From Actinotalea sp. Marseille-Q4924 (GTDB taxonomy: Bacteria; Actinomycetota; Actinomycetes; Actinomycetales; Cellulomonadaceae), in contig NZ_CAKAKB010000003.1 in the NCBI RefSeq assembly GCF_916618755.1, positions 992,001 to 1,056,000 on the forward strand: a DNA stretch of 64,000 nt. The letters run 5' to 3'. Under the pieces are notes generated by a model. The model saw nothing but the letters and a program-made list of their open reading frames with translations, ran no database searches and was not told where the DNA came from. Below are positions 31,045 through 47,476 of this stretch, piece by piece (the stretch's first letter is position 1; each line of letters starts with the position of its first letter). The translations under genes were made by a program, and so were the position numbers.

Positions 31045-31133
31045 CGGGACACCGTCCTCTCGGCCGTGCGGGCTGCTGCGGGCAGTGCTGTGATCAGCGG
31101 GACCAGCGGGTCCGGGGCGGGGACGGCGGGCAT
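31041..31133 (-). CDS. Thirty-codon bridging ORF between narG and narH
   Basis: A 30-residue ORF (MPAVPAPDPLVPLITALPAA, then ARTAERTVSR). Its ATG overlaps the narG stop (TGATG) and its TGA overlaps the narH start (ATGA). The perfect fit at both ends suggests it is translated and serves to couple NarH synthesis to NarG. A functional peptide is also possible. It is too short for homology. Without it there would be an 88-bp gap and narH would have no obvious ribosome binding site. Confidence 0.45.
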   Translation of the reverse strand: MPAVPAPDPLVPLITALPAAARTAERTVSR

Positions 31134-34100
31134 CAGTACTGCACCTCCTGGCTGCGACGACGGATCACGGTGACCTCGTCGCGCTGGTTCCCGGTCGGGC
31201 CGAGGTAGTTGAACGCGTAGGACAGCTGGGCGTACCCGCCGATGAGGTGGCTGGGCTTGACCAGCAGCCGGGTCAGCGAGTTGTGGATGCCGCCACGCTT
31301 GCCCGTCGTCTCCGACAGCGGCACGTCGATGAGGCGGTCCTGGGCGTGGTGCATGTACACCGTGCCCTCGGGCATCCGGTGCGACACGATCGCGCGGGCC
31401 ACGACGACGCCGTTGCGGTTGACCGCCTCGATCCAGTCGTTGTCCGCGACCCCGACCTTCGCGGCGTCCTTGTCGCTCATCCAGATCGTGGGGCCGCCGC
31501 GCGACAGCGACAGCATGAAGAGGTTGTCCTGGTACTCCGAGTGGATGGACCACTTGTTGTGCGGCGTCAGGTACCGGACCGTCACCCCGGACGCGCCGGC
31601 CGGGCCGGACCCGTCGAGGTCCGGCTCCCCGAACAGCGCCCCCATGTCGAGCGGTGGTCGGAAGACGGGGAGGTTCTCCCCCAGCTCGGTCATCCAGTCG
31701 TGGTCGAGGAAGAAGTGCTGGCGTCCGCTGAGGGTGTGCCACGGCCGCAGGCGCTCGACGTTGATCGTGAACGGGGAGTACCTCCGACCTCCGTGCTCGG
31801 AACCGGACCACTCGGGCGACGTGATGACCGGCACGGGCGCCGCCTGGGTGTCCGTGAAGGTGATCTGCTTGCCCTCGTGCTCGGCGGCCATGTCCGCCAT
31901 CGGGCGACCGGTCCGCTTCTCGAGCGTGTGGAAGCCTTGCACGGCGAGCCGGCCGTTCGTCGTCCCGGACAGCGCCAGGATCGCCTCGCACGCGTGGATG
32001 TCGCGGGTCAGGGCCGGCCGGCCGTCCGCGACGCCACCGGGGGTGTTCCGCACGACGCCGTTCTTGCGGGCGAGGTAGTCCACCTCCTTGTCCACCTGGT
32101 ACGTGATGCCCTTCGTCGTCGTGCCGAGCTTCTCCAGCAACGGCCCGAGCGCGCCGAGCTTCGCCGCCACGGCGCCGTAGTCGCGCTCGAGGACCACGAG
32201 CTTGGGCATCGTGCGCCCGGGGACGGGTTCGCACTCCCCCGTCTTCCAGTCCTTGACGCGACCGTGCGGCGTGGCCAGCTCGTCCGGGGTGTCGTGCATG
32301 AGGGGCACGGCCACGACGTCCTTGCGGACCCCCAGGTGCTGGGCCCCGAGCTCGCTGAACCGGCGCGCGAGGGTGTGGAAGATGTCGAAGTCGGTGCGCG
32401 TCTGCCACGGCGGTGCGATGGCAGGGCTGAACGAGTTCACGAACGGGTGCATGTCCGTGGTGTTGAGGTCGTGCTTCTCGTACCAGGTGGCCGCCGGCAG
32501 GACGACGTCGGAGTACACCGTCGTGCTGGTCATGCGGAAGTCCAGGGACAGCAGCATGTCGAGCTTCCCGGTGGGTGCCTCGTCCCGCCAGACGACGTCG
32601 CGGGGCCGCGCGGCCGGGGGCGCCTCGGTCGCCCGCATGTTCGAGTCCGTCCCGAGCAGGTGGTGCAGGAAGTACTCGTTGCCCTTGCCGGAGCTGCCGA
32701 GGAGGTTGGCGCGCCAGACGGTCAGCACGCGGGGGAAGTTCTCCGGCGCGTCCGGGTCCTCGGCCGCGAACCGCAGCTCGCCGGCCTTGAGGCGGGCCGG
32801 GACGTACTGGTCGACCGGCACACCGGCCCGGTCGGCGTCGTCGGCGAGGTCGAGGGGGTTGCGGTCGAACGTCGGGTAGGACGGCATCCAGCCCAGGCGG
32901 GCGGACATCGCGATGACGTCGGCCGTCGTCATGCCGGACAGGCGGCTGCGCGCCGGGTCCGTCGTCGCGGACGACAGGGCGTCGGCGCCGAACGGGTCGT
33001 ACCGGAACTGGTCCGTGTTGAGGTACCAGTACGCGGTCTGGATCATCGTGCGACCCGGTCGCGCCCAGTCCAGGGCGAAGGCGTAGTGACCGTGCCCGGT
33101 GACGGGACGGCACTTCTCCTGCCCGACGTAGTGCGCCCAGCCGCCTCCGTTGACGCCCTGGCACCCCGTGAGGGTGGTCAGGGCGAGGAACGCCCGGTAG
33201 ATGGTGTCCGAGTGGAACCAGTGGTTCGTCCCGGCACCCATGAGGATCATGGAGCGCCCGCGGGAGTCCTCCGCGTTCTGGGCGAACTCACGCCCGATCC
33301 GCTCCGCCTTGACGGCCGGGACGCCGGTGAACCGCTCCTGCCAGGCGGGCGTGCACGGCTCGCTCGCGTCGTCGTAGCCGGTCGGCCAGCGACCCGGCAG
33401 CCCCGGACGCCCCACGCCGTACTGCGCGAGGACCAGGTCGAAGACGGTGGTGACGAGGTGCCCACCGACACGCCGGACGGGCACGCCGCGGGTGACGGTC
33501 CGCGCGTCGCCGTCGAGGGTGTCGAAGCGCGGCAGGTGCACCTCGACGGCACCCTCCGTCTCGGCGTCGTCGGCCATCGTCAGGAGCGGGTCGACGTCCC
33601 CGAGGTCGAGGTTCCAGCGGCCCGCGCCCGCCTCGCCGTAGTGGAACCCGAGCGAGCCACCGGGGACGACCGGCTTGCCCGTGACCCGGTCCACCAGGAC
33701 GGTCTTGAACTGCGCGTTCTCGCTGTCCGCCTCGGCGCCTGGCAGGTCCGACGCGGTGAGGAACTTGCCGGGCACGAAGGCGCCGTCGGCCTCGTCCAGG
33801 CGGATGAGGAAGGGCAGGTCCGTGTACCTCTTGACGTACTCGGTGAAGTACGGGACCTGACGCTCGACGAAGAACTCACGCAGCGTCACGTGGCCCATCG
33901 CCATGGCCAGCGCGCCGTCGGTGCCCGGGGCGGCAGCGAGCCACTCGTCGGCGAACTTGACGTTGTCCGCGTAGTCGGGAGCGACCACGACCACCTTCTG
34001 GCCGCGGTACCGCGCCTCGGTCATCCAGTGCGCGTCCGGTGTGCGGGTCACGGGGACGTTCGAGCCCCACATGATCAGATAGCCGGCGTCCCACCAGTCG

Positions 34101-34882
34101 CCGGACTCCGGCACGTCCGTCTGGTCGCCGAAGACCTGCGGGGAGGCGACCGGCAGGTCGGCGTACCAGTCGTAGAAGGACAGCATCGGTGCCCCGAGCA
34201 GCGCGTGGTACCGCGCCCCCACCCCGTGGGAGACCATCGACATCGCGGGGATCGGGGAGAAGCCGGCGACCCGGTCGGGGCCGTAGGCGCCGATCGTGTA
34301 GACCTGCGCCGCGGCGGCGATCTCCGTCGCCTCGTCCCAGGTCGCGCGGACCAGCCCGCCCTTGCCGCGGGCCGCCTTGTAGCGGCGTGCCTTCTCCGGG
34401 TCCTCCACGATGCTGGCCCACGCCGCCACCGGGTCGCCCGTCGCGGCCTTCGCCTCGCGGTACATCTGCAGCAGCAGGCCACGCACGTACGGGTACCGGA
34501 TCCGCGTGGGCGAGTACGTGTACCAGCTGAAGGCGGCGCCACGGGGACACCCGCGCGGCTCGTACTCCGGCCGGTCCGGGCCCACCGACGGGTAGTCCGT
34601 CTGCTGCGACTCCCAGGTGATGATCCCGTCCTTGACGTAGACCTTCCACGAGCAGGAGCCCGTGCAGTTCACGCCGTGGGTCGACCGCACCACCATGTCG
34701 TGGCTCCACCGGTCCCGGTAGAACCCGTCGGCGTCCCGACCACCGATCTGGTGCAGCGTGCGCAGGTCGTGCGAGACCTCGCCCTTGCGCAGGTACCTGC
34801 CCAGCCGCAGGAGGACGTCCGACGCCGGGCCGTCGAGCCCCGCCTGTCCGGTCCCCTCGGTCGGCGTGACGGTCCGGTTCAT
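31133..34882 (-). CDS. narG: Respiratory nitrate reductase alpha subunit
   Basis: A 1249-residue catalytic subunit holding Mo-bis-MGD and the FS0 [4Fe-4S] cluster; it reduces nitrate to nitrite at the cytoplasmic face. FS0 ligands are H69, C73, C77 and C112 (THGVNCTGSC ... RGCPRG). GDQTDVPESGDWW is the conserved block around the Mo-ligating Asp region, and WGSNVPVTRTPDAH follows. Length equals that of E. coli NarG. The ATG at 34882 begins the conserved N-terminus; upstream in-frame codons are non-conserved. narK ends 52 bp upstream. Confidence 0.97.
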   Translation of the reverse strand: MNRTVTPTEGTGQAGLDGPASDVLLRLGRYLRKGEVSHDLRTLHQIGGRDADGFYRDRWSHDMVVRSTHGVNCTGSCSWKVYVKDGIITWESQQTDYPSVGPDRPEYEPRGCPRGAAFSWYTYSPTRIRYPYVRGLLLQMYREAKAATGDPVAAWASIVEDPEKARRYKAARGKGGLVRATWDEATEIAAAAQVYTIGAYGPDRVAGFSPIPAMSMVSHGVGARYHALLGAPMLSFYDWYADLPVASPQVFGDQTDVPESGDWWDAGYLIMWGSNVPVTRTPDAHWMTEARYRGQKVVVVAPDYADNVKFADEWLAAAPGTDGALAMAMGHVTLREFFVERQVPYFTEYVKRYTDLPFLIRLDEADGAFVPGKFLTASDLPGAEADSENAQFKTVLVDRVTGKPVVPGGSLGFHYGEAGAGRWNLDLGDVDPLLTMADDAETEGAVEVHLPRFDTLDGDARTVTRGVPVRRVGGHLVTTVFDLVLAQYGVGRPGLPGRWPTGYDDASEPCTPAWQERFTGVPAVKAERIGREFAQNAEDSRGRSMILMGAGTNHWFHSDTIYRAFLALTTLTGCQGVNGGGWAHYVGQEKCRPVTGHGHYAFALDWARPGRTMIQTAYWYLNTDQFRYDPFGADALSSATTDPARSRLSGMTTADVIAMSARLGWMPSYPTFDRNPLDLADDADRAGVPVDQYVPARLKAGELRFAAEDPDAPENFPRVLTVWRANLLGSSGKGNEYFLHHLLGTDSNMRATEAPPAARPRDVVWRDEAPTGKLDMLLSLDFRMTSTTVYSDVVLPAATWYEKHDLNTTDMHPFVNSFSPAIAPPWQTRTDFDIFHTLARRFSELGAQHLGVRKDVVAVPLMHDTPDELATPHGRVKDWKTGECEPVPGRTMPKLVVLERDYGAVAAKLGALGPLLEKLGTTTKGITYQVDKEVDYLARKNGVVRNTPGGVADGRPALTRDIHACEAILALSGTTNGRLAVQGFHTLEKRTGRPMADMAAEHEGKQITFTDTQAAPVPVITSPEWSGSEHGGRRYSPFTINVERLRPWHTLSGRQHFFLDHDWMTELGENLPVFRPPLDMGALFGEPDLDGSGPAGASGVTVRYLTPHNKWSIHSEYQDNLFMLSLSRGGPTIWMSDKDAAKVGVADNDWIEAVNRNGVVVARAIVSHRMPEGTVYMHHAQDRLIDVPLSETTGKRGGIHNSLTRLLVKPSHLIGGYAQLSYAFNYLGPTGNQRDEVTVIRRRSQEVQY

Positions 34883-34934
34883 CGGTGCTCCCTCGCGTGG
34901 TCGTGCGTCGTGCGGGCGGTTCGTCGTGCGTCGG

Positions 34935-36254
34935 TCAGCCGGGCTTGGGGGCTCCCGGCCGGGCGTAGTACACCCAGGCGAGGACGGTGCAGACGGCGAA
35001 GTAGACGGCGGCACCGAGGAAGAAGGTCCGCGGCGGCATCGCCGCGAGGGCCATGCCGACGAGGAACGGCCCGAACGCCGCGATCGACGCGGTCCAGCCG
35101 ATGACGCCGCCGGCCTGACGCTTGGAGAAGATCATCGGCATCTGCTTGAAGGTACCCGCGTTACCGACGCCCGCGAAGAAGAAGAGCGAGAGCATCCCGA
35201 CGAGGAACCAGGTGAACTGGCCGCGGTCCGTCGGCGACAGGAAGAAGGCCGCGAACACCGTGCTGATCGTCATCCCGACGCCCGCGACGAACGTCCACAG
35301 CGCGCCGCCGAAGCGGTCGCACAGCGGGCCCATGAGCGCCCGGACGAGCGAGCCCACGAGCGGGCCGAGGAAGGCGAACTTCAGCGGGTCCGGGGCGTCC
35401 GCGAAGCTGCCGTACTCGCTGCGGATGATGAGGGCGAGCTGGGCGGCGAACCCGCTGAACGCGCCGAAGGTCATGACGTAGATCGCCGTCATGATCCAGG
35501 TGTGCTTGTCGCTGAAGATGTCCAGCTGCTCGCGGAAGTTCGCCGTGACCGGCACCCGCTTGAGGAACAGCGCCGACAGGATGACGCCCAGGATTACCCA
35601 CGGGATGAGCACCAGGGCGGCGTTGTGCAGCCAGACCTGCCCGCCGTCGACGGTCTGCTGCGGGGCGAAGAGCGACGACGTGCCGAGCAGGGCGAACCCG
35701 ATGACCCACGGCGTGAGGAACTGGATGAGGCTGACGCCGAAGTTGCCGAGGCCCGCCTGCAGACCGAGTGCCGTCCCGGCGAGCCGCTTGGGGAAGAAGT
35801 AGCTCGTGGAGGGCATGAAGCCGGAGAAGGCGCCACCGCCGATCCCGACGGCCGCGGCGAGCACCATGAGCACCCAGTACGGCGTCGTGGGGTCCTGCAG
35901 GGCGAGCATCCAGCCGACCATGGGGATGACCATGAGAGTGGCGGTGCCGCCGACCAGCGTCTTCGTCCCCAGCATGGCCGGCAGGAACATGTAGACGATC
36001 CGCAGGAGCCCACCGGCGAGCCCCGGGATGGCGACGAGCCAGTAGAGCTGGGAGTCGGTGAGGCCGAAGCCGATGAGGTTGAGACGTGGCGCGATCGCGC
36101 TGACGAGGAACCACAGCGCGAAGCACAGCGTCAGGTTGAACGTCGTGATCCACAGCGTGCGCCACGCGAACCCGCTGTCCCACGCCTCCGGGTGCTCCGG
36201 GTCCCACTGCGAGAGGTCCGCGCGGGTCCTCTTCGTCGTCCGGGGCATCACCAT
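34935..36254 (-). CDS. narK: Nitrate/nitrite MFS transporter, first copy
   Basis: A 439-residue, 12-helix MFS transporter of the NarK/NNP family. Features include the first helix TTFNLTLCFALWFLVSAIAP, a substrate-region GAFSGFMPSTSYFFPK matching the nitrate signature, and GNAGTFKQMPMIF in the second half. It heads the narKGHJI operon and probably imports nitrate or exchanges it for nitrite. AGGAGG precedes the ATG at 36254; a second ATG 6 bp downstream is also possible. A Crp-like site lies 125 bp upstream. Confidence 0.93.
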   Translation of the reverse strand: MVMPRTTKRTRADLSQWDPEHPEAWDSGFAWRTLWITTFNLTLCFALWFLVSAIAPRLNLIGFGLTDSQLYWLVAIPGLAGGLLRIVYMFLPAMLGTKTLVGGTATLMVIPMVGWMLALQDPTTPYWVLMVLAAAVGIGGGAFSGFMPSTSYFFPKRLAGTALGLQAGLGNFGVSLIQFLTPWVIGFALLGTSSLFAPQQTVDGGQVWLHNAALVLIPWVILGVILSALFLKRVPVTANFREQLDIFSDKHTWIMTAIYVMTFGAFSGFAAQLALIIRSEYGSFADAPDPLKFAFLGPLVGSLVRALMGPLCDRFGGALWTFVAGVGMTISTVFAAFFLSPTDRGQFTWFLVGMLSLFFFAGVGNAGTFKQMPMIFSKRQAGGVIGWTASIAAFGPFLVGMALAAMPPRTFFLGAAVYFAVCTVLAWVYYARPGAPKPG

Positions 36255-36378
36255 GGCTCCTCCTCGATGCGGGGACCGCCGACCGGTCCTGTCGCCGAGT
36301 GTGGGCGTGTCGAGCGCGTCGCACCTACCACCGAGCGCCGTGTCAAAGGTCTCTCCCCCCGAGGAGCCGAAGATCGTC

Positions 36379-36394
36379 TGTGATCCGCATCACG
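36379..36394. promoter_or_regulatory. Crp/Fnr-family dyad upstream of narK
   Basis: TGTGA-TCCGCA-TCACG, with a perfect inner palindrome GTGAT-N4-ATCAC, lies 125 bp before the narK start. It is the natural place for activation of the nar operon by a Crp/Fnr-family protein. The rest of the 36,255-36,500 gap shows no gene. Confidence 0.55.
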
Positions 36395-36500: not shown

Positions 36501-37220
36501 TCAGCGGCTGAGGTGCAGCACGCAGTGCCCGGGCCCGACGAAGGGCTCCAGGCGCTCGGCACGCACAGGCCCCTCCTCGCACGCGAGCACACCCCGTGCG
36601 ACGCCGAGGTGGACGCTGCAGACCATCTCGGTGCGCTCCTGCGCGAGGGGGAGGAACGGGCAGTCGCGCAGGTGCACGCGACGTCCGTCGGCGTCCAGGT
36701 CGGGCGCCAGACCGAGGTCCTCCAGGTGCGTCTCCAGGAGCGCGAGCTGACGCCGCGCGGCCGCGTCCTCGGCGTCAGGGCCCGGAGGGCTCGCCTGGAC
36801 GTCGTGCGCCGCGGGCGGCACGGGAGCCCGACGGCGCTCCGCGTGCTCGCGGGCCCACGCCTCGCCCGCGCGCTCCGCGGCCGCCGTCGAGGCGCCGACC
36901 TCCCCGCCGTACCCCTGCAGGACCGCGGCGAGGAGGTGCTCCCGGAACCGCTCGTCGAGCGTCGCCGCGGCCGGTCGGTCGACCGCCAGCCACAGGATGC
37001 GCGGGCGCCCGCGCGTCCCGCGCCGCTCGACGGTGCGGTCGACGAAGCCGGCGACGCGGAGCCGCTCGAGGTGCTCGCGGGCCGTGTTGACGTGGACCTG
37101 GGCCGCGGCGGCGAGGTCGTCGACGCCGAGGGGCGCGCCCGAGCGCTGGAGGGCGTGCAGGATCGCGAGCCTGCTGGGCGAGGCCAGCGCCCGGGCGGCC
37201 GACGTCGTGCGCTGCACCAT
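36501..37220 (-). CDS. HTH regulator with putative Fe-S ligands (SufR/ArnR-like)
   Basis: A 239-residue winged-helix regulator (ArsR-like HTH: SPSRLAILHALQRSG ... VHVNTAREHLERLRVAGFV; wing RRGTRGRPRILW). The C-terminal half has C187, C201, H204 and C233, the pattern C-x13-C-x2-H-x28-C, shared exactly with the regulator at 40,065. SufR and the corynebacterial nitrate-reductase repressor ArnR combine an HTH with a C-terminal Fe-S cluster, so a redox or NO-sensing repressor is inferred. The start could also be the ATG at about 37,253. It is divergent from mog, with a DosR-like box between. Confidence 0.72.
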   Translation of the reverse strand: MVQRTTSAARALASPSRLAILHALQRSGAPLGVDDLAAAAQVHVNTAREHLERLRVAGFVDRTVERRGTRGRPRILWLAVDRPAAATLDERFREHLLAAVLQGYGGEVGASTAAAERAGEAWAREHAERRRAPVPPAAHDVQASPPGPDAEDAAARRQLALLETHLEDLGLAPDLDADGRRVHLRDCPFLPLAQERTEMVCSVHLGVARGVLACEEGPVRAERLEPFVGPGHCVLHLSR

Positions 37221-37256
37221 GCTGATGATTTTTGACGGTCGGGGCCGGGGCATCCC

Positions 37257-37269
37257 GGGACCTAGGGCC
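37257..37269. promoter_or_regulatory. DosR/DevR-like box GGGACCTAGGGCC
   Basis: Matches the DosR consensus GGGACYTNNGNCC over 13 positions. It lies in the divergent region between the HTH regulator and mog, 14 bp upstream of the mog -10 element. Confidence 0.5.
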
Positions 37270-37282
37270 GGGGTCGGGTGGG

Positions 37283-37288
37283 TACCGT
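37283..37288 (+). promoter_or_regulatory. -10 element TACCGT of mog
   Basis: Seven nt before the GTG at 37296. It decides between several in-frame GTG codons. Confidence 0.5.
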
Positions 37289-37295
37289 GGCGCGC

Positions 37296-37808
37296 GTGGA
37301 CGAGGACACGACGGCACGCCACGCGGCCATGCGTGGGATCACGGTCGCCGTCGTGGTGGCCTCCGACCGGTGCGCGCGCGGCGAGGCCGAGGACCGGTCC
37401 GGGCCTCGCGCGGCCGGGCTGCTGCGGGCGGCGGGCCACGACGTCCGGGAGGTGGTCGTCGTCCCTGACGGCGCCGCCAGCGTCCGCGACGCCGTCGTCG
37501 CCGCGGCGCGGACGGCCGACGTCGTGCTGACGAGCGGCGGCACGGGCGTGGCGCCGCGTGACGAGACGCCGGAGGGGACGCGCCCCCTGCTGGCCCGGGA
37601 GCTGCCGGGCCTGGCCGAGGCCCTGCGGCGGCACGGCGAGGCGCACGTGGCGACGGCGGTCCTGTCCCGCGGCCTCGCGGGCGTCACCGCGGACGGGGTG
37701 CTCGTCGTGAACCTCCCCGGCAGCACCCGGGGCGTCGAGCAGGGGCTCGAGGTGCTCCTGCCGCTCCTGGGCCACGTCGTGGACCAGGTGCGCGGCGGCG
37801 ACCACTAG
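37296..37808 (+). CDS. mog: MogA/MoaB family molybdopterin adenylyltransferase
   Basis: A 170-residue protein that adenylylates molybdopterin before molybdate insertion. The family core is TSGGTGVAPRDETPEGTRPLL, with the N-terminal strand AVVVASDRCARGEAEDRSGP and a final VNLPGSTRGVEQGL. GTG 37296 is chosen from four candidate starts because of the -10 spacing. It supplies cofactor for NarG encoded nearby. The rest of the moco genes here run on the opposite strand and converge on it. Confidence 0.87.
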   Translation: MDEDTTARHAAMRGITVAVVVASDRCARGEAEDRSGPRAAGLLRAAGHDVREVVVVPDGAASVRDAVVAAARTADVVLTSGGTGVAPRDETPEGTRPLLARELPGLAEALRRHGEAHVATAVLSRGLAGVTADGVLVVNLPGSTRGVEQGLEVLLPLLGHVVDQVRGGDH

Positions 37809-37816
37809 GACCCCGT

Positions 37817-38056
37817 TCAGCCTCCGGCGAAGGGCGGCAGCACGTCGACCGTGGTGCCATCGGGCAGGGGCGTGGCGCCGTCGTCGGCGCGCCTGCCCGC
37901 CACGAGGAACGAGCACCGGTCCAGGACCCGGTCCAGGTCGGCCCCGTGGCGGCCGACGACGTCCCGGCGCAGGTCGGCCAGCGTCCCCGCGACGACCTCC
38001 TCGGTGTCCCGCCCCGCGGCCTCGGCCGCCGCCGCGAAGTACCGGACGGTGATCAC
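37817..38056 (-). CDS. moaD: MoaD/ThiS family sulfur carrier
   Basis: A 79-residue ubiquitin-like small subunit of molybdopterin synthase, ending in the required GG (DVLPPFAGG), which becomes a thiocarboxylate after adenylylation by a MoeB-type enzyme (encoded at 40,811-42,010). The GTG start gives ITVRYFAAAAEAAGRDTE. It overlaps the stop of the mobA fusion by 4 bp. Confidence 0.88.
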   Translation of the reverse strand: MITVRYFAAAAEAAGRDTEEVVAGTLADLRRDVVGRHGADLDRVLDRCSFLVAGRRADDGATPLPDGTTVDVLPPFAGG

Positions 38057-38973
38057 GAGTGGCCCTCGCCGCCGCCCCACCCGGCGACCAGCGCGGTCAC
38101 CTGCTGCGTCACGCTCTCGAGCGCGGCGCGGTCGGCCCCGCGGACGGCGACGGCGTAGCCGGAGAGGAACGCGGTGATGGGCACGGCGGGGCGACCGACC
38201 CCGTGCGCCGTGTCCCGCGCGAGGTCCAGCAGCACGTCGATGTCCACCGCGTCGGGGTCCACGTCGAGCTCCTCGACGACGTGGGCGACCCAGCGGTGCA
38301 GCTCGTCACCGCCGCTGGGCGGGGTCGCGGGTGGGGTCGTGGCGGGCACATCGGTCACGTCGGTCCTCCGGCGGAGCGTCCTGGCCAGGTCCGCCACAGC
38401 CTGCCACGTGTCCACGTCGGCCGCCTCGCCCCCGGGCAGGTCGACAGTCACCGCCGTCATCCCGGCGACGAGGCGCCGCATGGAGCAGTCCCGCACGCCA
38501 CCCTCGCCGTGACGGCGCGCCAGCGCGGCGAGCAGCCGGTCCCGGCGGTAGAGCGCGAGCAGCGGCTGACCACGGCCGTCGCCGTCGACCGCCCAGGCGA
38601 CGTCGGCGTCGGGTGCCCCCGCGGCCGCGGCCAGGAGAGCCGGGACGACCTCGACGGCGAGAGGCACGTCGCAGGCGAGCACGAGCACGTGGCCGGGCCG
38701 GGGCGCCGTCCCGTCGTCGAGCGCCCGCAGGCCGGCGTCGATGCCCGCCACCGGACCACCGTCGGGCGGGTCCTCGAGCGCGATGACCACCCCCGCACGC
38801 GCCAGCTCGGGCGGGCCGACGACGACGACGCGGTCCGCCGCCGCGGTGCCCTCCAGGACCCGGTCCAGCAGCGACCGCCCGGCCACGCGGACGTCCGGCT
38901 TGCTCACGGCGCCCAGCCGCCGTCCACGGCCGCCGGCGAGCACGACGGCGTCGTGGGCGACGGCGGAGGTCAC
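38053..38973 (-). CDS. mobA: Molybdenum cofactor guanylyltransferase fused to DUF6457
   Basis: 306 residues. Residues 1-~190 are a MobA-like nucleotidyltransferase (VVLAGGRGRRLGAVSKPDV; Asp in LVLACDVPLAV; CSMRRLVAG), which attaches GMP to Mo-molybdopterin to form the MGD needed by NarG. Residues ~215-306 are a separate helical domain (LHRWVAHVVEELDVDPDAVD) of the DUF6457 type, usually encoded alone next to moco genes. A short Pro/Thr linker joins them. The GTG overlaps the moaC stop. Pairing of the two in one chain supports a moco role for DUF6457. Confidence 0.85.
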   Translation of the reverse strand: MTSAVAHDAVVLAGGRGRRLGAVSKPDVRVAGRSLLDRVLEGTAAADRVVVVGPPELARAGVVIALEDPPDGGPVAGIDAGLRALDDGTAPRPGHVLVLACDVPLAVEVVPALLAAAAGAPDADVAWAVDGDGRGQPLLALYRRDRLLAALARRHGEGGVRDCSMRRLVAGMTAVTVDLPGGEAADVDTWQAVADLARTLRRRTDVTDVPATTPPATPPSGGDELHRWVAHVVEELDVDPDAVDIDVLLDLARDTAHGVGRPAVPITAFLSGYAVAVRGADRAALESVTQQVTALVAGWGGGEGHS

Positions 38974-39494
38974 GTGGGGCCCAGGAGGCCGTCGGCGGCG
39001 TCGCGGTCGTCGGACCTCCAGTCCCCGGACCTGCCGCCGGACTTCGCGACGACCCGGACACCGTCGATCCGCGCGGTGCGGTCGATGCCCTTGACCATGT
39101 CCACGACGGCGAGGGCGGCGACGCACACGGCCGTCAGCGCCTCCATCTCGACACCCGTGCGGTCGGCGGTCCGGACGGTCGCGGAGACCTCCACGCCCTC
39201 GTCGGTCACCTCGAGGTCGACCACGACCCCGTGGACCCCGATGACGTGGGCGAGGGGCAGCAGCTCCGGGGTCCGCTTCGCCGCCGCGATGCCCGCGACC
39301 CGCGCGACCGCCAGGACGTCGCCCTTGGGGACCGTGCCGGACCGCAGCGCCGCCACCACCTCGGGCGCGCAACCGACGCGGCCGCGCGCGGTCGCGCTGC
39401 GCACGGTCGGCTGCTTCGCCGTGACGTCGACCATCCGCGCACGCCCGGCCGGGTCCAGGTGGGTGAACGGGTGGGCGTCCTCCGGTGGCGTCAT
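38970..39494 (-). CDS. moaC: Cyclic pyranopterin monophosphate synthase accessory protein
   Basis: A 174-residue MoaC that converts the MoaA product to cyclic pyranopterin monophosphate. Diagnostic blocks are KGDVLAVARVAGIAAAKRT, LPLAHVIGVHGV and MEALTAVCVAALAVVDMVKG. A GAGGGG ribosome binding site precedes the ATG at 39494. moaA, moaE and moeA are not in this window, so the cluster is incomplete on its own. Confidence 0.95.
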   Translation of the reverse strand: MTPPEDAHPFTHLDPAGRARMVDVTAKQPTVRSATARGRVGCAPEVVAALRSGTVPKGDVLAVARVAGIAAAKRTPELLPLAHVIGVHGVVVDLEVTDEGVEVSATVRTADRTGVEMEALTAVCVAALAVVDMVKGIDRTARIDGVRVVAKSGGRSGDWRSDDRDAADGLLGPT

Positions 39495-39508
39495 GGTCCC
39501 CTCGTCGT

Positions 39509-39973
39509 TCAGCAGCAGGTGTCGCGGCTGACCAGGACGCGCCAGACGTCCGGTCCCTGCGCAAGGTACTGCCACCCGAGGTGCCCGAGGTCCTGCTCCT
39601 CGAGCTGGCGGCGCAGCCCGACCGGGTCGTGGTCGTTCGCGAGGACCACGCCCTCACCGGGCAGCAGGCCGCCGACGACGGCGAACACCCGCGCGTGCCG
39701 CTCCGGCCGCGGGAGCGATCGCAGGTCCAGGTCACCCGGCTCGACCAGCGCGTCGCTCGTCCCGAGCGCGTCGGCGACGGTGCCCGTCGCCGCCGTCGTG
39801 CCGCGGTCCGGGCCGGCGACGATCTGCAGGCCCTCCTGGCGCTCGCCCCGGGTCCCCGAGCCGGCGTCCTGGGCGGCCCCGCCGCAGCCGCACCCGCCGC
39901 AGCCGCACCCGCCGGCCTCGCTCGACCCGGTCTCCTCCGGGGCGCCGGTCACCTGCTGGGTCGTGTCCGTCAT
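39509..39973 (-). CDS. Cys-rich DUF2249 protein
   Basis: 154 residues. The N-terminal ~40 residues carry a compact Cys/Gly cluster (GGCGCGGCGCGG). The middle is a DUF2249 domain: DLRSLPRPERHARVFAVVGG, LANDHDPVGLRRQLEEQ and YLAQGPDVWRVLV. The chain ends in Cys-Cys. DUF2249 occurs beside nitrite/NO genes and in hemerythrin-like proteins; its chemistry is unknown. The Cys cluster could bind a metal or Fe-S centre. GAGGAG precedes the ATG at 39973. The gene is divergent from the second Fe-S-type regulator, its likely controller. Confidence 0.75.
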   Translation of the reverse strand: MTDTTQQVTGAPEETGSSEAGGCGCGGCGCGGAAQDAGSGTRGERQEGLQIVAGPDRGTTAATGTVADALGTSDALVEPGDLDLRSLPRPERHARVFAVVGGLLPGEGVVLANDHDPVGLRRQLEEQDLGHLGWQYLAQGPDVWRVLVSRDTCC

Positions 39974-40064
39974 CACAGCTCCTCACGATCTCGCGGCGCC
40001 GCACCGGCCGCCGGGCCGTCGTCGGCCGCTTGCTTTCTACACCTCTTCCGAGGGAAAATCCACC

Positions 40065-40817
40065 GTGCCCATCCCCCGCTCCGAACCGGCCCTGCGCCTG
40101 CCCCCCGGGGCACGCCGAGCGGCCCTGCTGGCGGCCCTCGAACGCGCCGTGGAGCCGACGACGGCGGCGGAGCTCGCCCAGGCCGCGGGCCTGCACCCGA
40201 ACACCGTGCGCGCGCACCTGGAGGTCCTCGTGCGGGAGGGCCGCGCCACCCGCCGGACCGAGCGCCGGGGCACCCGCGGCCGCCCGCGGGAGCTGTACGA
40301 GGCGACCGGCGCGCCGGACCCCGCGCAGGCGTACGCGGCGCTGGCGCTCCTCCTCGCCGAGCAGCTCGCGACCGCGACGAGCGACCCGGGCGCCGAGGGC
40401 GAGCGGATGGGACGGCGATGGGCGACGCGGGGCGACGACGCGCAGGAGGCGACCCGCGACGGGCGACCCCCGGGCCCCGAGGTCGTGGACAGGGACGGGG
40501 TCGCGGAGGTCATGACCGTGCTCCGCCGCGCGGGCTTCGCACCGGAGCTGACCACGGACGGAACGCAGGTGCTCCTGCACAGCTGCCCGGTGCGGGACGT
40601 CGCCCACGCGCAGCCCACGGTCGTCTGCCAGGCACACCTCGGGCTCATCCGCGCCACGCTGGAGGCGGCCGGCTCCGACGTCGTGGCGACCCGCATCGAG
40701 CCGTTCGTGGCCCCCGACCTCTGCGTCGCCTCGTTCGACCGGCCGGCCGACGCCGCGCCCGGCCCGGTGCCCGCCGCCGCGTCAGCGCTCGGCGACCCCG
40801 GCGACGTCGCTCAGTAG
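40065..40817 (+). CDS. HTH regulator with putative Fe-S ligands, second copy
   Basis: A 250-residue paralogue of the regulator at 36,501. The HTH is EPTTAAELAQAAGLHPNTVR with wing RRGTRGRPREL. The conserved C-terminal ligands are C174, C188, H191 and C220, again C-x13-C-x2-H-x28-C. It has an extra ~25-residue C-terminal tail. The GTG at 40065 has no strong ribosome binding site. It is divergent from the DUF2249/moaC/mobA/moaD operon. Convergent overlap of 7 bp with the ThiF gene. A redox or NO role is inferred from context. Confidence 0.72.
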   Translation: MPIPRSEPALRLPPGARRAALLAALERAVEPTTAAELAQAAGLHPNTVRAHLEVLVREGRATRRTERRGTRGRPRELYEATGAPDPAQAYAALALLLAEQLATATSDPGAEGERMGRRWATRGDDAQEATRDGRPPGPEVVDRDGVAEVMTVLRRAGFAPELTTDGTQVLLHSCPVRDVAHAQPTVVCQAHLGLIRATLEAAGSDVVATRIEPFVAPDLCVASFDRPADAAPGPVPAAASALGDPGDVAQ

Positions 40818-42010
40818 CGGGCCTGGCTCGGGTCCACCTGGTCCACCCACGCCAGCACGCCGCCCTCGAGGTGCGCCACGTCGGACCACCCCGCGGCGAG
40901 CAGTGCCCGCGCCGCCTGCTCGGAGCGCACACCGCTGCGGCAGTGGAGGACCACGGGCACGTCGCGGCGCACGAGCCCCCGCCCGCTGCCGTCCAGGATC
41001 CCCGCCAGCGGGACGGCGTCGGCACCGGGGATCGCCACGATCGCCCGCTCGCCCGGCTGGCGCACGTCCACGAGCTGCAGCCCCGGCCCGCCGTCGTCCC
41101 GCGCGGTCAGCCGGTCCGCCAGCTCGCGGGCGGTGACCACGGGCACCACAGGCTCGGGTGCCGCTCGCTCGGGAGGTGCGCCGGCGTGGGCCGGCGTACC
41201 GGGCGGGCGCGCTGCCGCGACGAGCGGGACCTCCGTCCATCGTGCCGCCAGGGCGTCCATGACCAGGACGCGGCCCAGCAGCGGCCTCCCCACGCCTGTG
41301 AGCAGCTTGACCGCCTCGGTCGCCATGACGGAGCCGACCTGCCCGCACATGGCGCCGAGGACGCCGCCCTCGGCGCAGGACGGCACGCTCCCGGGCGGCG
41401 GCGGCGAGGGGAACAGGTCGCGCAGCTGCACCGGGGTCACGCCGCTCCCCGCCGGCGGGCTCCCCCAGAACACGGCGACCTGGGCATCGAAGCGGAAGAC
41501 CGAGCCCCACACCTCCGGTACGCCGAGGCGGACGCAGGCGTCGTTGACGAGGTACCGGGTGGGGAAGTTGTCCGTCCCGTCCACGACAAGGTCGTAGTCG
41601 GCGAGCAGGTCGACGGTGCCGGCCTCGAGGCGCAGCCGGTGCGTCACCACCTCAACGTCGGGGTCCAGGGCACGGACGGCGTCGGCGGCGGAGTCCACCT
41701 TGGGCCGGCCCACGTCGGCGACGCCGTGGAGCACCTGCCGCTGGAGGTTCGAGGCCTCGACCACGTCGTCGTCGACGACGCCGAGGCGACCCACCCCGGC
41801 CGCCGCGAGGTAGAGCAGGACCGGGGCGCCCAGACCACCGGCGCCGACCACGCAGACGCGCGCGTTGCGCAGGCGCCGTTGCGCGGACTCGCCGAGCTGG
41901 GGCAGCAGCAGGTGTCGCGACCAGCGCTCCCGCTGCGCGGCGGTGAGCGGCGGGCCCGGCTCGACGAGCGCGGGGACGCTCGGCGCGGAGGCGGAGCCCG
42001 GTGACGTCAC
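40811..42010 (-). CDS. moeB: ThiF/MoeB adenylyltransferase with rhodanese domain
   Basis: A 399-residue E1-like enzyme. The ThiF domain has the nucleotide loop VVGAGGLGAPVLLYLAAAGVG, SNLQRQVLHG, DGTDNFPTRYLVND and the catalytic-loop PSCAEGGVLG. The C-terminal rhodanese domain (~290-399) carries its sulfur-binding Cys in LHCRSGVRSEQAA. Such proteins adenylylate MoaD/ThiS and deliver sulfur to form the thiocarboxylate. The 79-residue MoaD encoded at 37,817 is the likely partner. The role in thiamine or cysteine synthesis instead cannot be excluded. Confidence 0.88.
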   Translation of the reverse strand: MTSPGSASAPSVPALVEPGPPLTAAQRERWSRHLLLPQLGESAQRRLRNARVCVVGAGGLGAPVLLYLAAAGVGRLGVVDDDVVEASNLQRQVLHGVADVGRPKVDSAADAVRALDPDVEVVTHRLRLEAGTVDLLADYDLVVDGTDNFPTRYLVNDACVRLGVPEVWGSVFRFDAQVAVFWGSPPAGSGVTPVQLRDLFPSPPPPGSVPSCAEGGVLGAMCGQVGSVMATEAVKLLTGVGRPLLGRVLVMDALAARWTEVPLVAAARPPGTPAHAGAPPERAAPEPVVPVVTARELADRLTARDDGGPGLQLVDVRQPGERAIVAIPGADAVPLAGILDGSGRGLVRRDVPVVLHCRSGVRSEQAARALLAAGWSDVAHLEGGVLAWVDQVDPSQARY

Positions 42011-42026: not shown

Positions 42027-44711
42027 TCACGGCCCGACCCGCAGCAGGCCGGAGGCGCCGCGCTCGGCGTCCACCATCCGGTGGGAGACGAAGGGGTAGG
42101 TGCCCGCCTCGGGCAGCACGAGCTCGACGAAGCCCCCCTGTGCGGGCTCGAGCGCCAGCACCTGAGCACCGCCGGTCGGGTCACCCCCGACGGCGGACGG
42201 CCCGCCCAGCAGGTACGCACCCTCGCTGTAGACGGTGTCGAACTGCCCGCCCACGACGTGGAAGGCGGAGGACCGGTTCGGCCCGGCGTCCAGCACCCAG
42301 AACCGCACGCGCTCCCCCACCCGCGCCTCGAGCGGGCGGTGCCGGTACTGCGACGCGTGCCCGTTGAAGACGACGCCGTCGGGCTGCTCCAGCAGGAGCT
42401 TCTCCGTGTCGGTGAGCAGGCCGGCGATCCCGTCGGTCCGGCCGTCGGTCGTCGCGTCGTCCGGACCGGGGTCCGCGGTGACGTAGAGCTCGGACTGCAC
42501 GACGAGGTACTCGCGGTCCACCGGGGGCAGTCCCGGCGGGTCGATGACGACCGCCCCGAACATCCCGTTGGCGATGTGCAGCGACATGGGCATGGTCGAG
42601 CAGTGGTACATCCACACCCCGGAGCGGTTCGCCGTGAAGGTGTAGGTGAGGCTCTCCCCGGGTTCGATCGTGCGCATCGGCCGGTCCGGCGCCAGGGCAC
42701 CGGCGTGGAAGTCGATGGAGTGGCCGAGCGAGCCGTCGTTGACGAGCGTGATCTCGAACGTGTCCCCGACCGTGCCGCGCAGCGTCGGTCCGGGGAACGT
42801 GCCGCCGAAGGTCCAGACCGTCCGACGGACGCCGGGCGCGACCTCCTGCTCCTGCTCCGTCACCGCGAGCGTGACCCGGTGGACGGTGCCCGACCGCGCG
42901 GGCGGCAGGGCGGCGTCCCGGATCGCGACTCCCGGGCCGGGCGGCGCCAGGAGGTCCATGGGTACGCGGGCACCGGAGGACCCGACGGCGTGGTCGGCGC
43001 CCGCTGCGGGGTCGGTCGTCCCCGCTGCCGTGGCCGCCGCCGGTCCCCCGGTGACGACGACGTCGAAGGTCATGCCCATCTGCCGGTGACCGGCCACGGA
43101 GCACCACCCGGCGAGCGGGCGACCGACGACGCCGACGTCGACGCGCGTCGTGGCACCGGCGGCCAGGCGCCCGCTCGCCGCTCCGGAGTCGAGCACGAGG
43201 TCGTGCACCGTGGAGTCGACGTTCGTCACCACCAGGACGAGGCGGTCGCCCGCGGCGACCTCGACCGAGGCCGGCTCGAACCGCATGTCCTGCGCCTCGA
43301 CCTCCACCTCGACGACGCGACCGCTGGCCGTGACGCCGCCCGAGGCGGCGGCGCCGAGACCGACCGCGGCCGGGTCGGCGGCCACCCCGGCGGCCACGAC
43401 GAGCACGAGGGCGACCCCCGCCGCGAGGGCCGGGCCCCCGGAGGCCCGGCGGGTCGCGAGCACCTCCGCCGGGGTGATCGTCACGGGCGCCGCTCCCGCC
43501 GCGCGCACCGGCGCGGTCCGGCGCACCCGCCGGGACACGACGGCGGCACGGACGAGCAACACGGGCGTGACGACGAGGCCGGCGAGGGCCAGGGCGGACG
43601 CCCCGACCCGGACCAGGCTCGGTGCGGGCAGCGCGAAGAGGACCAGCCCACCGTTGACGAGGACGAGGCGCGCCCCGGCCCCGCGCTCCATGACGGCCCG
43701 TGCGGTGCGGACGGCAGCCGGACCGCCGCCGAGGATCATCGGTCCCAGGTGCGAGAGCGCGCCCAGGAGCACCTGGGCCGCGAAGCCGGCCGCGAGGAGG
43801 GGCAGCGCGAGACGCAGGCCGGCCTGCACCCCCGGCCAGTCCGGTGCCGCGACGACGGCCACCACGGCCGCGGTCACCGCGACCCCGTACCAGAGCACCG
43901 CGGCGGCGACGGACCACGGCGCGAAGCCCTCGGGGCGGCGCCGGCGGGCCTGCTCGATCCAGGGGCCCACGGCGACGGCGAGCCCGGACAGGTACAGCAG
44001 GAGCCCGGCGGCAGCCACGGCGCGCGAGCCGGCGAGGGCTCCGGCGACCGTCACGGCGACACCGCCCACGAGAGGGCCCAGCGCGCGGCGGGCGGCGGGG
44101 AGCGCACCGTCGGCCACGGTCACGCGCAGCATCGTCGGCCAGAGCGTGACGAGGGTCCCCAGGACCGTGACGCCCACCCAGCCGAGCAGCATGACGACGA
44201 CATGGGCGACGTACGCCCGCGCAGCCAGGGCTCCGGTCGTCTCCGGCCGGGCCATGAACGCCCCGAGAGCCGCCCCCACGGGCAGGCACGCGGCGGCCGC
44301 CACGAAGTACCAGCTGGTCCAGCCGAGCCGCACGCCGAGGCCGCGGCGGCTGACCTCCACGAGGACGACGGCGTGCCACACCGCCCCCGCCGCCACGGCG
44401 AGCGCGCCGGAAGCGACCACCGACCACGTGCCGGACAGCAGTCCCGACACGACGGCCAGCGCGCCGGCGGTGTGCAGTCCGAGGCGTTTCGCCTGCCCCC
44501 GGTGACCACCGCGCAGCGGCCGACGACGCACCGCCTCCGCGAAGTGCGCCGACCAGATGAGGATCGCCGTGCTCACCGCGCCGAGCAGCAGCAGGTGGAC
44601 CATGAGCCATCCGGCGGCCGGGAACCACCGGTGCCCGCCGGCCACGACGGCGGCGGCGGCCAGCCACGCGACGACGAGCAGGTTGACGCGGACGTGCCAG
44701 CGCGCCCTCAT
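42027..44711 (-). CDS. nirK: Membrane-fused copper nitrite reductase (NirK) with extra cupredoxin
   Basis: An 894-residue, three-part protein. Residues 1-~440 contain about ten transmembrane helices (e.g. WLMVHLLLLGAVSTAILIWS, VVMLLGWVGVTVLGTLVTLW). Residues ~465-555 are a cupredoxin with H503 and C537 (WCSVAGHRQMGM). Residues ~600-894 are a complete copper nitrite reductase: type 1 Cu H664, C704, H712, M717; type 2 Cu H669, H703, H877; catalytic D667 and H818. It should reduce nitrite to NO outside the membrane, with the cupredoxin feeding electrons. The ATG overlaps the stop of the NnrS-like gene. Confidence 0.88.
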   Translation of the reverse strand: MRARWHVRVNLLVVAWLAAAAVVAGGHRWFPAAGWLMVHLLLLGAVSTAILIWSAHFAEAVRRRPLRGGHRGQAKRLGLHTAGALAVVSGLLSGTWSVVASGALAVAAGAVWHAVVLVEVSRRGLGVRLGWTSWYFVAAAACLPVGAALGAFMARPETTGALAARAYVAHVVVMLLGWVGVTVLGTLVTLWPTMLRVTVADGALPAARRALGPLVGGVAVTVAGALAGSRAVAAAGLLLYLSGLAVAVGPWIEQARRRRPEGFAPWSVAAAVLWYGVAVTAAVVAVVAAPDWPGVQAGLRLALPLLAAGFAAQVLLGALSHLGPMILGGGPAAVRTARAVMERGAGARLVLVNGGLVLFALPAPSLVRVGASALALAGLVVTPVLLVRAAVVSRRVRRTAPVRAAGAAPVTITPAEVLATRRASGGPALAAGVALVLVVAAGVAADPAAVGLGAAASGGVTASGRVVEVEVEAQDMRFEPASVEVAAGDRLVLVVTNVDSTVHDLVLDSGAASGRLAAGATTRVDVGVVGRPLAGWCSVAGHRQMGMTFDVVVTGGPAAATAAGTTDPAAGADHAVGSSGARVPMDLLAPPGPGVAIRDAALPPARSGTVHRVTLAVTEQEQEVAPGVRRTVWTFGGTFPGPTLRGTVGDTFEITLVNDGSLGHSIDFHAGALAPDRPMRTIEPGESLTYTFTANRSGVWMYHCSTMPMSLHIANGMFGAVVIDPPGLPPVDREYLVVQSELYVTADPGPDDATTDGRTDGIAGLLTDTEKLLLEQPDGVVFNGHASQYRHRPLEARVGERVRFWVLDAGPNRSSAFHVVGGQFDTVYSEGAYLLGGPSAVGGDPTGGAQVLALEPAQGGFVELVLPEAGTYPFVSHRMVDAERGASGLLRVGP

Positions 44712-45940
44712 CGGGAGACCTCCAGGGACGTGGTCGCCCCCGACGGGGCGTCGGGGGCCGGTGGGGCGGACGTGGGGACGTCGGGTGGCGCCGGGGTCGA
44801 CGGCCCGGAGGTGCTGTCGGGGTCGCGGCCGGCGCCGGCACGCGGAGTCCTCCGCCGGACGCGCGTGGCGACGACGAGGACGACCGGGAGGAGCAGGACG
44901 GCGGCGACGCCGAGAGCGCCGCCGGTCCGCAGCGCCCAGAACTGACCGTGGGCGTCGCCGCCCACGAGCCGCAGCACGAGGGACGCCTGGAGGAGCGCCA
45001 CGGGTGCGTAGAGGGCGCGGTGGTACGGCACGGGGCGGCGGAGCACGGCAGGGAGGATGACCGGGGCGTGGGCCATGATCATCGTGATGACGAAGCCCAC
45101 GAAGACCGCGTGGACGACGGCGTCGTAGGCCGGTCCCTCGGTCGCGGCACCGCCGACGAGCCAAGCGGCACCGGCGACGGCCAGCCACCCGTAGCCGCAG
45201 AGCAGGCACACGGCCACGTACCGGGGCAGGCCGGTCGACCTCACGGTGCGCCGGGCGACGTCGACGGCGAGGAGCCGGGCGACCAGCGCCAGCAGCGCGA
45301 GGCCGAGCAGCGCATGGCCGGCGCCGGGCCACAGCGTCGCCGCGCCCAGACCGGCGAGCACGGCCACCGCGAGGAGCACCGCGGCCGACCCGTCCGCACC
45401 GCCGCCGAGCCGGCCGCCGATCCTGCCCAGCTCCTCACGCTCCGCCGCGATGACGAGCACGAGGAAGACCGCCAGCCACGGCACGAGTGCGGGGACGGGG
45501 ACACCCGCCCACCAGAGGACGGCGGCGCCGAGCCCCACCGTGGCCCCGAGGACCTCGACCGCCATGGCGGCGCAGGGCCGTCGCTGCCACAGGCGCACCT
45601 CGACGACGAGTGCGGCGGCGCACCCGGCGGCCAGGACGGCCTGGCCCACCGACAGCGGGACGGCCCCGGCGAGGAGGACCAGCCCGCCCGTCCCGAGCAG
45701 GGCCGGTGCCACGACGGCGCGCCGCCGTCGCAGCGCCACGGCGCGTTCCAGGGCGACGAGCGTGCCGACGAAGCCGAGCACGAGGAGCGGCCCGTGCACC
45801 TGCAGGAGCCTGGCCGTGGTCACCGGTGCCGGCAGGCCGAGGAGCAGCAGACCCCCGTCCAGCCCCGCGAGCAGGGCCACGCCGCCGCCGGCGAGCAGCG
45901 CCACACGCGTCCGCAGGCCCGGCACCGCCCTGTTTTTCAC
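44708..45940 (-). CDS. NnrS-like polytopic membrane protein
   Basis: A 410-residue protein with about 12 helices. RLLQVHGPLLVLGFVGTLVA and AVVHAVFVGFVITMIMAHAP carry His residues inside helices, as in heme/copper-containing NnrS proteins linked to NO metabolism. Pro/Ser/Thr-rich C-terminus of ~45 residues. The GTG at 45940 is in an unusually AT-rich stretch. It overlaps nirK by 4 bp, so the two are co-expressed, and it may protect against NO or assemble NirK. A DosR-like box lies 36 bp upstream. The NnrS label is tentative. Confidence 0.7.
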   Translation of the reverse strand: MKNRAVPGLRTRVALLAGGGVALLAGLDGGLLLLGLPAPVTTARLLQVHGPLLVLGFVGTLVALERAVALRRRRAVVAPALLGTGGLVLLAGAVPLSVGQAVLAAGCAAALVVEVRLWQRRPCAAMAVEVLGATVGLGAAVLWWAGVPVPALVPWLAVFLVLVIAAEREELGRIGGRLGGGADGSAAVLLAVAVLAGLGAATLWPGAGHALLGLALLALVARLLAVDVARRTVRSTGLPRYVAVCLLCGYGWLAVAGAAWLVGGAATEGPAYDAVVHAVFVGFVITMIMAHAPVILPAVLRRPVPYHRALYAPVALLQASLVLRLVGGDAHGQFWALRTGGALGVAAVLLLPVVLVVATRVRRRTPRAGAGRDPDSTSGPSTPAPPDVPTSAPPAPDAPSGATTSLEVSR

Positions 45941-45975: not shown

Positions 45976-45989
45976 AGGACCTAGGTCCC
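45976..45989. promoter_or_regulatory. DosR/DevR-like box (full consensus match)
   Basis: On the minus strand GGGACCTAGGTCCT fits GGGACYTNNGNCCY at all 14 positions; the core GGACCTAGGTCC is a perfect palindrome. It lies 36 bp before the NnrS-like/nirK operon. Confidence 0.6.
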
Positions 45990-45996
45990 TTGACGC

Positions 45997-47403: not shown

Positions 47404-47476
47404 GGCTCCCCTCCGGGTTTTCCCCGGGCGCTCCCGGCTCAAACCCGAACGGTAGGGCCCCGCGCCGGCTCGAACG

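Follow-up and report, generated by a model that had tools for sequence, protein, structure and literature searches.

The two genes regA and regB lie in a 64,000-nucleotide (nt) stretch of Actinotalea sp. Marseille-Q4924 (assembly GCF_916618755.1, contig NZ_CAKAKB010000003.1, positions 992,001 to 1,056,000; hereafter the window, whose coordinates are used throughout), among genes for nitrate respiration and molybdenum cofactor (moco) synthesis. Judged by their sequences, RegA and RegB are best read as ArnR-type repressors, so that nitrate and nitrite respiration is probably controlled here by a set of such repressors that is doubled and cross-wired. In its full form, this reading makes both proteins [4Fe-4S] repressors that respond to nitric oxide (NO) and are specialised but regulate each other, which we consider reasonably likely. 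The initial annotation had placed two paralogous helix-turn-helix (HTH) regulators at 36,501-37,220 and 40,065-40,817, one divergent from mog beside narKGHJI and the other divergent from a DUF2249/moco operon, and coordinates, paralogy and gene order were all confirmed.

RegA and RegB align in BLASTP with 75 of 210 columns identical (36%, E = 2e-18). Both contain C-x13-C-x2-H-x28-C exactly and have the same wing, ERRGTRGRPR, as had been proposed. The HTH_20 model, a winged HTH (wHTH) of ArsR/MarR type, matches both proteins (39.3 and 31.0 bits, cut-off 27), and HTH models alone reached the Pfam cut-offs in either of them. A sequence search of solved structures put NmtR and ArsR-type HTH chains on top, followed by weak, chance-like matches.

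This architecture recalls ArnR of Corynebacterium glutamicum. According to the available excerpts of its description (PMC12343034), ArnR carries Cys179, Cys193 and Cys223 (C-x13-C-x29-C), binds a [4Fe-4S] cluster and represses narKGHJI and hmp; NO makes it release DNA, and O2 degrades the cluster only very slowly. The same excerpts report that single Cys-to-Ala variants lose both the cluster and DNA binding, that a conserved His of unproven role lies near the Cys residues, the fourth cluster ligand being unknown, and that the sensor domain is TRAPPC3-like; one template for it was zinc-bound TRAPPC3, and ArnR preparations contained some Zn. AlphaFold2 models of our proteins, built from four-row alignments, had a mean predicted local distance difference test score of 77.5 for RegA, with a predicted wHTH, helices and an alpha/beta domain, and of 73.2 for RegB. 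Foldseek, run with the RegA model only, returned a Pyrococcus wHTH regulator first and human TPC6 (TRAPP) fifth (template modelling score 0.60 by target length, E 0.013), with no match at E<=0.001. At the level of a predicted model, this result is consistent with the TRAPPC3-like domain described for ArnR.

The ligand positions are conserved well beyond the two proteins. Our survey covered 99 genomes, with matches at E<=1e-5 in 52 (RegB query) and 55 (RegA query), and the fetched loci, which leave aside a few weak matches, yielded 104 homologous open reading frames (ORFs), two of them duplicate readings of one locus. The pattern C-x13-C-x2-H-x(25-34)-C was matched by 89 of the 104 ORFs; the 15 others include two truncated ORFs, a clade of six with Asn for His and two with Leu. 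In a 100-row alignment, from which the two duplicates and the two truncated ORFs were removed, 99 rows keep each Cys and 91 keep the His, which is replaced by Asn in 6, Leu in 2 and Arg in 1. We rely on these counts and not on a 40-row alignment with invariant Cys and His, whose rows were selected and include none of the 15 off-pattern ORFs. The initial annotation had staked its proposal on conservation of these residues in orthologues, and they are conserved. The Cys/His spacing is beyond chance, yet it is a family signature.

Some family members depart from it in informative places. The sole row without Cys (L098:6034-6828) lacks the His as well as the three Cys, which makes a cluster-free derivative possible; its gene stands between narG and narK-type genes. 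Two RegA orthologues in moco clusters without nar (L066, L067) have Leu in place of the conserved His. The Asn-for-His clade comprises L043, L126, L128, L129, L132 and L140, all but the last near a gene of a cluster with a Pyr_redox_2/Reductase_C representative.

The initial annotation had treated the two regulators as a pair, of which the paralogy stands. However, RegA and RegB are not simply a pair, because the genome holds further family members: a profile search gave five matches at E<=1e-8, including a third clear copy with 46% identity to RegA (C2:285810-286445, L042:8810-9520) and a distant one (C2:221165-221788, 29%). The third copy adjoins a DUF488 gene, with a methyltransferase gene and an ArsR-type HTH gene nearby; no gene of the nar, nir or moco sets is found within 7 kb of it, and its group is present in five other genomes of the genus. 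A recent tandem duplication was also ruled out, since RegA-RegB identity within a genome is 38-43% (six genomes) versus 50-74% among orthologues, and the two proteins fall in separate clades. The trees behind these clades are quick ones with Shimodaira-Hasegawa-like approximate likelihood ratio (SH-aLRT) support, calculated without the four duplicate or truncated ORFs.

The genes that surround the family point in the same direction as its ligands. Neighbours were counted within 7 kb, window genes included, using tblastn and a home-made gene caller, and the counts are lower bounds because contig ends cut several loci. The 25 main RegA-clade genes have moco genes nearby in 17 cases, nar in 13, DUF2249 in 7 and NirK in 2, with a divergent mog in 13; for the 11 RegB-clade genes the figures are DUF2249 10, NirK 8, moco 8 and nar 3, with a divergent DUF2249 gene in 8. 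The divergent neighbour is the best separator of the two clades. Other groups of the family keep similar company: nar genes are near 7 members of an eight-row group, NirK is near 11 of a 12-row group, and 19 of the 28 remaining rows have some nar, nir, moco or DUF2249 gene within that distance. For comparison, none of the six members of the Asn clade has nar, NirK, moco or DUF2249 genes so close. Of 38 genomes with DUF2249, 37 carry a family member, as do 35 of 38 with NirK, versus 15 and 17, respectively, of the 61 genomes without the gene in question (kinship ignored). By position, a family member is within 3 kb for 32 of 47 DUF2249 genes and within 6 kb for 27 of 43 NirK matches.

The initial annotation had asked whether the two regulators occur together beside nar/nir genes elsewhere. 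Both clades lie on one contig, in the same order, in six of 19 genomes of the genus (G000, G002, G003, G011, G015 and G017). Among ten more distant loci chosen for having at least two members, NarG adjoins one member and DUF2249 another in four (L208, L210, L212, L213); in the other six this pairing is not clean. Each partner set also occurs alone: some relatives have RegA orthologues next to moco genes but lack nar there (L065-L068), and RegB relatives are found with DUF2249 and nirK-like genes in loci that have no nar (L052, L061, L081).

A candidate operator connects the promoters. DNA across the regB start is highly conserved among orthologues, and a regB matrix, made with sites chosen by eye from nine regB promoters of other genomes and thus leaving the window out, ranks the regB, regA and narK2 promoters of the window (best sites at 40048, 37226 and 47415) 1, 2 and 3 of 127,974 positions. 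In 1000 permutations of its columns, the regA rank was matched in 12 cases and the narK2 rank in 4, but never both together. Sites for the other matrices were chosen by eye or by expectation maximization (EM). EM on ten narK upstream regions gave TTnACCCGGCG, 55-110 nt upstream of the start, and joint EM on the narK regions and 14 regA promoters gave GATTnnnCCCGG, for which shuffled controls overstate significance because orthologous promoters share ancestry. With a narK matrix from sites of other genomes, the best regA-promoter site ranked 1-3 in 10 of 14 loci and 6 in one. Searching with the single regA site sequence and allowing 3 mismatches did no better than chance (2 found, mean 1.11). 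On this sequence evidence, a shared operator of RegA and RegB is a good candidate. The two proteins probably read related operators and cross-regulate, because the regB matrix ranks regB, regA and narK2 first, although the reverse tests are weaker. Related motifs in the regA, regB, narK and narK2 promoters cast doubt on the clean split of pathway control between two repressors that the initial annotation had envisaged.

Several results weigh against the cross-wired ArnR-type reading. In a 141-row tree, neither RegA (36 rows, SH-aLRT 100) nor RegB (11 rows, 99) groups with the corynebacterial ArnR-like proteins (15 rows, 98); since these are separate clades, RegA and RegB are ArnR-type yet not ArnR orthologues. 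The corynebacterial rows, which stand in for C. glutamicum ArnR, come from a genus that is very probably Corynebacterium (a member matched C. lubricantis and C. pacaense) and in which 151 of 151 genomes have at least one family match at E<=1e-15. The Actinotalea genome gave no PF00042 globin/Hmp match, which rules out hmp, the second ArnR-type target, and leaves half of the ArnR regulon missing. None of the six genes in the group of the third copy, and none of four other RegA-clade genes, has nar, nir or moco within 7 kb. The partner sets overlap, with DUF2249 near RegA in 7 of 25 cases and moco near RegB in 8 of 11, because paired clusters put both within 7 kb. The matrices, too, agree poorly in several directions. 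The narK matrix fails for three of the 14 regA promoters (ranks 75, 222 and 237). On 12 regA promoters, window included, the regB matrix gives ranks 1-3 in six and 6, 12, 15, 17, 126 and 485 in the others, among which the starts in L047 and L060 are probably miscalled; its ranks are 68 for the narK promoter, 115 and 30 for sites preceding the nirK-linked gene and 1141 for the DUF2249 side. The regA matrix (from 8 of the 14 regA promoters) ranks the window regB promoter 32nd, reaches the top 4 for 5 of 10 regB promoters, and ranks the window narK site 156th. Finally, promoter elements may account for part of the motif's conservation: it and probable -10 regions of leaderless starts overlap, and TTGACC is found within some narK sites.

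These points bear on a simpler arrangement in which the two ArnR-type proteins have clean regulons, RegA controlling mog and narKGHJI and RegB controlling DUF2249-moaC-mobA-moaD and itself, without cross-regulation, the likeness of the motifs being inherited or due to promoter elements. The different divergent partners of the two clades and the weak reverse matrix tests would suit it, as would GGAAAAT, whose single occurrence in the window is in the regB promoter; of the 7 GGAAAATnCA matches across the loci, 6 are 3-7 nt away from the start of a RegB gene, the pattern having been drawn from those promoters. Nevertheless, the regB matrix puts the regA and narK2 promoters above every position except regB, and we regard clean regulons as possible but clearly the less probable arrangement. 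The nature of the signal allows other choices. RegA and RegB might be SufR-like, or sensors of O2, redox or iron state and not of NO, losing the cluster under oxidative stress or iron shortage. The weak TIGR02702 match of RegB speaks for this, as does SufR itself, whose comparable C-terminal domain, as far as the available excerpts go, also provides three Cys that are used (PMC6034842). We find it unlikely, given scores far under the SufR cut-off, the x13 in place of x12 spacing, the nitrate and nitrite neighbours and, for O2, the very slow loss of the ArnR cluster reported in the portion of that work at hand (PMC12343034). A structural zinc site, with a ligand such as nitrate, nitrite or molybdopterin, would accord with the zinc-bound template and the Zn content noted for ArnR in those excerpts, and with the moco-only contexts of the RegA orthologues in L065-L068, two of them with Leu for His. 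The ligand set is, however, close to that of ArnR, whose Cys-to-Ala variants are there described as losing cluster and DNA binding, and a zinc site seems to us quite improbable.

For the preferred reading, that of two NO-responsive ArnR-type repressors, we infer the following mechanism. Each repressor, probably a dimer, would join an N-terminal wHTH to a C-terminal sensor domain in which three cysteines hold a [4Fe-4S] cluster, the conserved histidine being the likely fourth ligand. With the cluster intact, the repressors would occupy a box related to GATTWTTCMCGG that overlaps the start regions of regA and regB and is also present before narK and narK2; the direction of regulation would be negative, keeping nitrate respiration and moco synthesis low. 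Once oxygen becomes scarce, NO produced by nitrate reductase or by the nirK-like enzyme would attack the cluster; the repressors would then leave DNA, and nar, moco, narK2, regA and regB would be induced. RegA would be specialised on nar and moco and RegB on DUF2249 and the nirK-like genes, with mutual regulation through the related boxes.

The wider genome, 99.99% complete, fits NO sensing. Besides the lack of a globin/Hmp match, no hybrid-cluster protein (Hcp) was found in it and no PF00115-type NO reductase, the sole PF00115 gene being aa3 oxidase subunit I (NF050116, 1022 bits, cut-off 880). The nirK-like enzyme would therefore make NO without a recognised sink of these three kinds, truncated haemoglobins and other sinks lying outside the search. 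More speculatively, and with rather low confidence, we propose a two-repressor NO circuit in which one operator class, different cluster sensitivities (perhaps with heterodimers) and mutual and self repression stage the pathway so that nitrate reductase and cofactor precede the NO-producing nirK-like step, in a cell without detected Hmp, PF00115-type NO reductase or Hcp. The initial annotation had seen here an undescribed redox- or NO-sensing system; a two-sensor NO circuit is indeed suggested, but its kind is already known from ArnR and so is not wholly new.

As listed in Table 1, regA lies upstream of narK-narGHJI on the same strand, whereas regB is about 4 kb from narK. The nirK-like gene scores 165.2 bits with TIGR02376, below the curated cut-off of 296.3, and a stretch of about 430 N-terminal residues precedes its cupredoxin and copper nitrite reductase-like parts. 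The name NnrS for the adjoining gene was unsupported, the Pfam scan giving no match. The DUF2249 protein (39509-39973) has a Cys-rich GGCGCGGCGCGG segment and CC at its C-terminal end, and Cys-rich coding like this recurs upstream of several regB orthologues.

Table 1. Genes and candidate sites of the regA-regB region (window coordinates).
Feature	Position	Strand	Basis
narK-narG-narH-narJ-narI, presumed main RegA target	27744..36254	-	gene order kept in relatives
Candidate box upstream of narK, CCTTTGACACGGCG	36336..36349	-	EM; weak in reverse test (rank 156)
CRP/GlxR-like site upstream of narK, TGTGATCCGCATCAC	36379..36393	+	little above chance across loci
RegA, wHTH regulator, 239 aa, C187/C201/H204/C233	36501..37220	-	BLASTP, Pfam, AlphaFold2 model, homologue alignment
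Candidate RegA/RegB box, regA promoter, GATTTTTGACGGTC	37227..37240	+	matrix scans
GGGACC-type box (other regulator), between regA and mog	37257..37269	+	
mog/moaB (MoCF_biosynth), divergent from regA	37296..37808	+	
DUF2249-moaC-mobA(DUF6457)-moaD operon, divergent from regB	37817..39973	-	mobA = MobA/DUF6457 fusion
Candidate box, regB promoter, GGATTTTCCCTCGG	40048..40061	-	conservation, regB matrix
RegB, wHTH regulator, 250 aa, C174/C188/H191/C220	40065..40817	+	BLASTP, Pfam, alignment, AlphaFold2 model
moeB-like ThiF + rhodanese gene	40811..41968 (start approximate; 40838-41965 scanned)	-	
nirK-like gene, 894 aa: N-terminal part with cupredoxin domain fused to copper nitrite reductase-like part	42027..44711	-	
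Gene adjoining nirK in relatives	44708..45940	-	without Pfam match
narK2, major facilitator superfamily nitrate/nitrite transporter	45997..47403	-	
Candidate box just upstream of narK2, GGTTTTCCCCGGGC	47416..47429	+	matrix scans

The region carries further boxes of another type. GGGACC-type boxes, which we take to resemble DosR/NarL-type boxes, occur between regA and mog (37257), before narK2 (47477) and before the nirK-linked gene (45976-45990). Many RegA-clade starts are preceded by the box at a distance of 27-37 nt (66 nt in L049), the pattern having been drawn from those promoters, and near reference gene starts it occurs 27 times versus 0-2 expected, a figure subject to the same origin of the pattern. 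All loci together contain 43 boxes versus 26-31 in a Markov control, and the genome 12 versus 7 for the reversed pattern. Independently of the regA promoters, it stands six times before narK or narK2 and once before narG; four of those six loci belong to another family group, and the box is present elsewhere in the genome. We therefore doubt that it is a RegA operator, and a separate regulator is more likely. In three loci (L228, L232, L233), the box is near genes that, read from translations only, are qcrC-, ppdK- and ndh-like, and L233 also has what we presume to be a Rex-like palindrome. The CRP/GlxR-like pattern was found in the loci 5 times near gene starts versus 1-3 expected. Together, the GGGACC and CRP/GlxR-like sites hint at additional regulatory inputs, perhaps the oxygen or energy state.

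Both comparisons offered by the initial annotation, SufR and ArnR, can now be weighed, and ArnR is the one that fits in domain order and ligand positions. SufR of Mycobacterium tuberculosis (Rv1460) is likewise a wHTH protein with three conserved cysteines in its C-terminal domain, but in the excerpts at hand these are C203, C216 and C244, with x12 and x27 gaps (PMC6034842), and its context is the suf operon, while the identified neighbours of RegA and RegB are nar, moco and nirK-like genes; membership was rejected at 23.8 bits (RegB) and 13.4 bits (RegA) with TIGR02702, against a cut-off of 178.8. Rv2621c-type proteins, for which the accessible part of the ArnR paper predicts an ArnR-like sensor domain (PMC12343034), are likened to ours by description only. 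The DUF2249 proteins DrpA and DrpB of Thermus thermophilus are linked with nitrate respiration and put forward as sensors of nitrate in the excerpts available (PMC6282519, PMC11218638); there the master regulators are DnrS and DnrT, whereas in Actinotalea the DUF2249 gene is divergent from an ArnR-type gene. Among the open-access papers that our searches listed, none was on a paired ArnR-type circuit. With ArnR itself, RegA and RegB share the wHTH followed by a C-terminal set of three Cys and a conserved His, the C-x13-C spacing, the location at narKGHJI and a CRP/GlxR-like site upstream of narK; they differ in the last gap (x29 in ArnR, x31 in RegA and RegB) and in a cluster that has two regulators with nirK-like, DUF2249 and moco neighbours and in which no globin/Hmp gene was found. 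What is new here is the regB matrix from other genomes that links the regB, regA and narK2 promoters. In the sampled genomes, the family is often near nitrate and nitrite reductases, and its His is nearly as conserved as its Cys, with natural Leu and Asn variants. These variants and the candidate operators make directly testable both the fourth ligand of ArnR, a question left by the portion of the ArnR work available to us, and the timing of the nitrate-to-NO steps in such actinobacteria.

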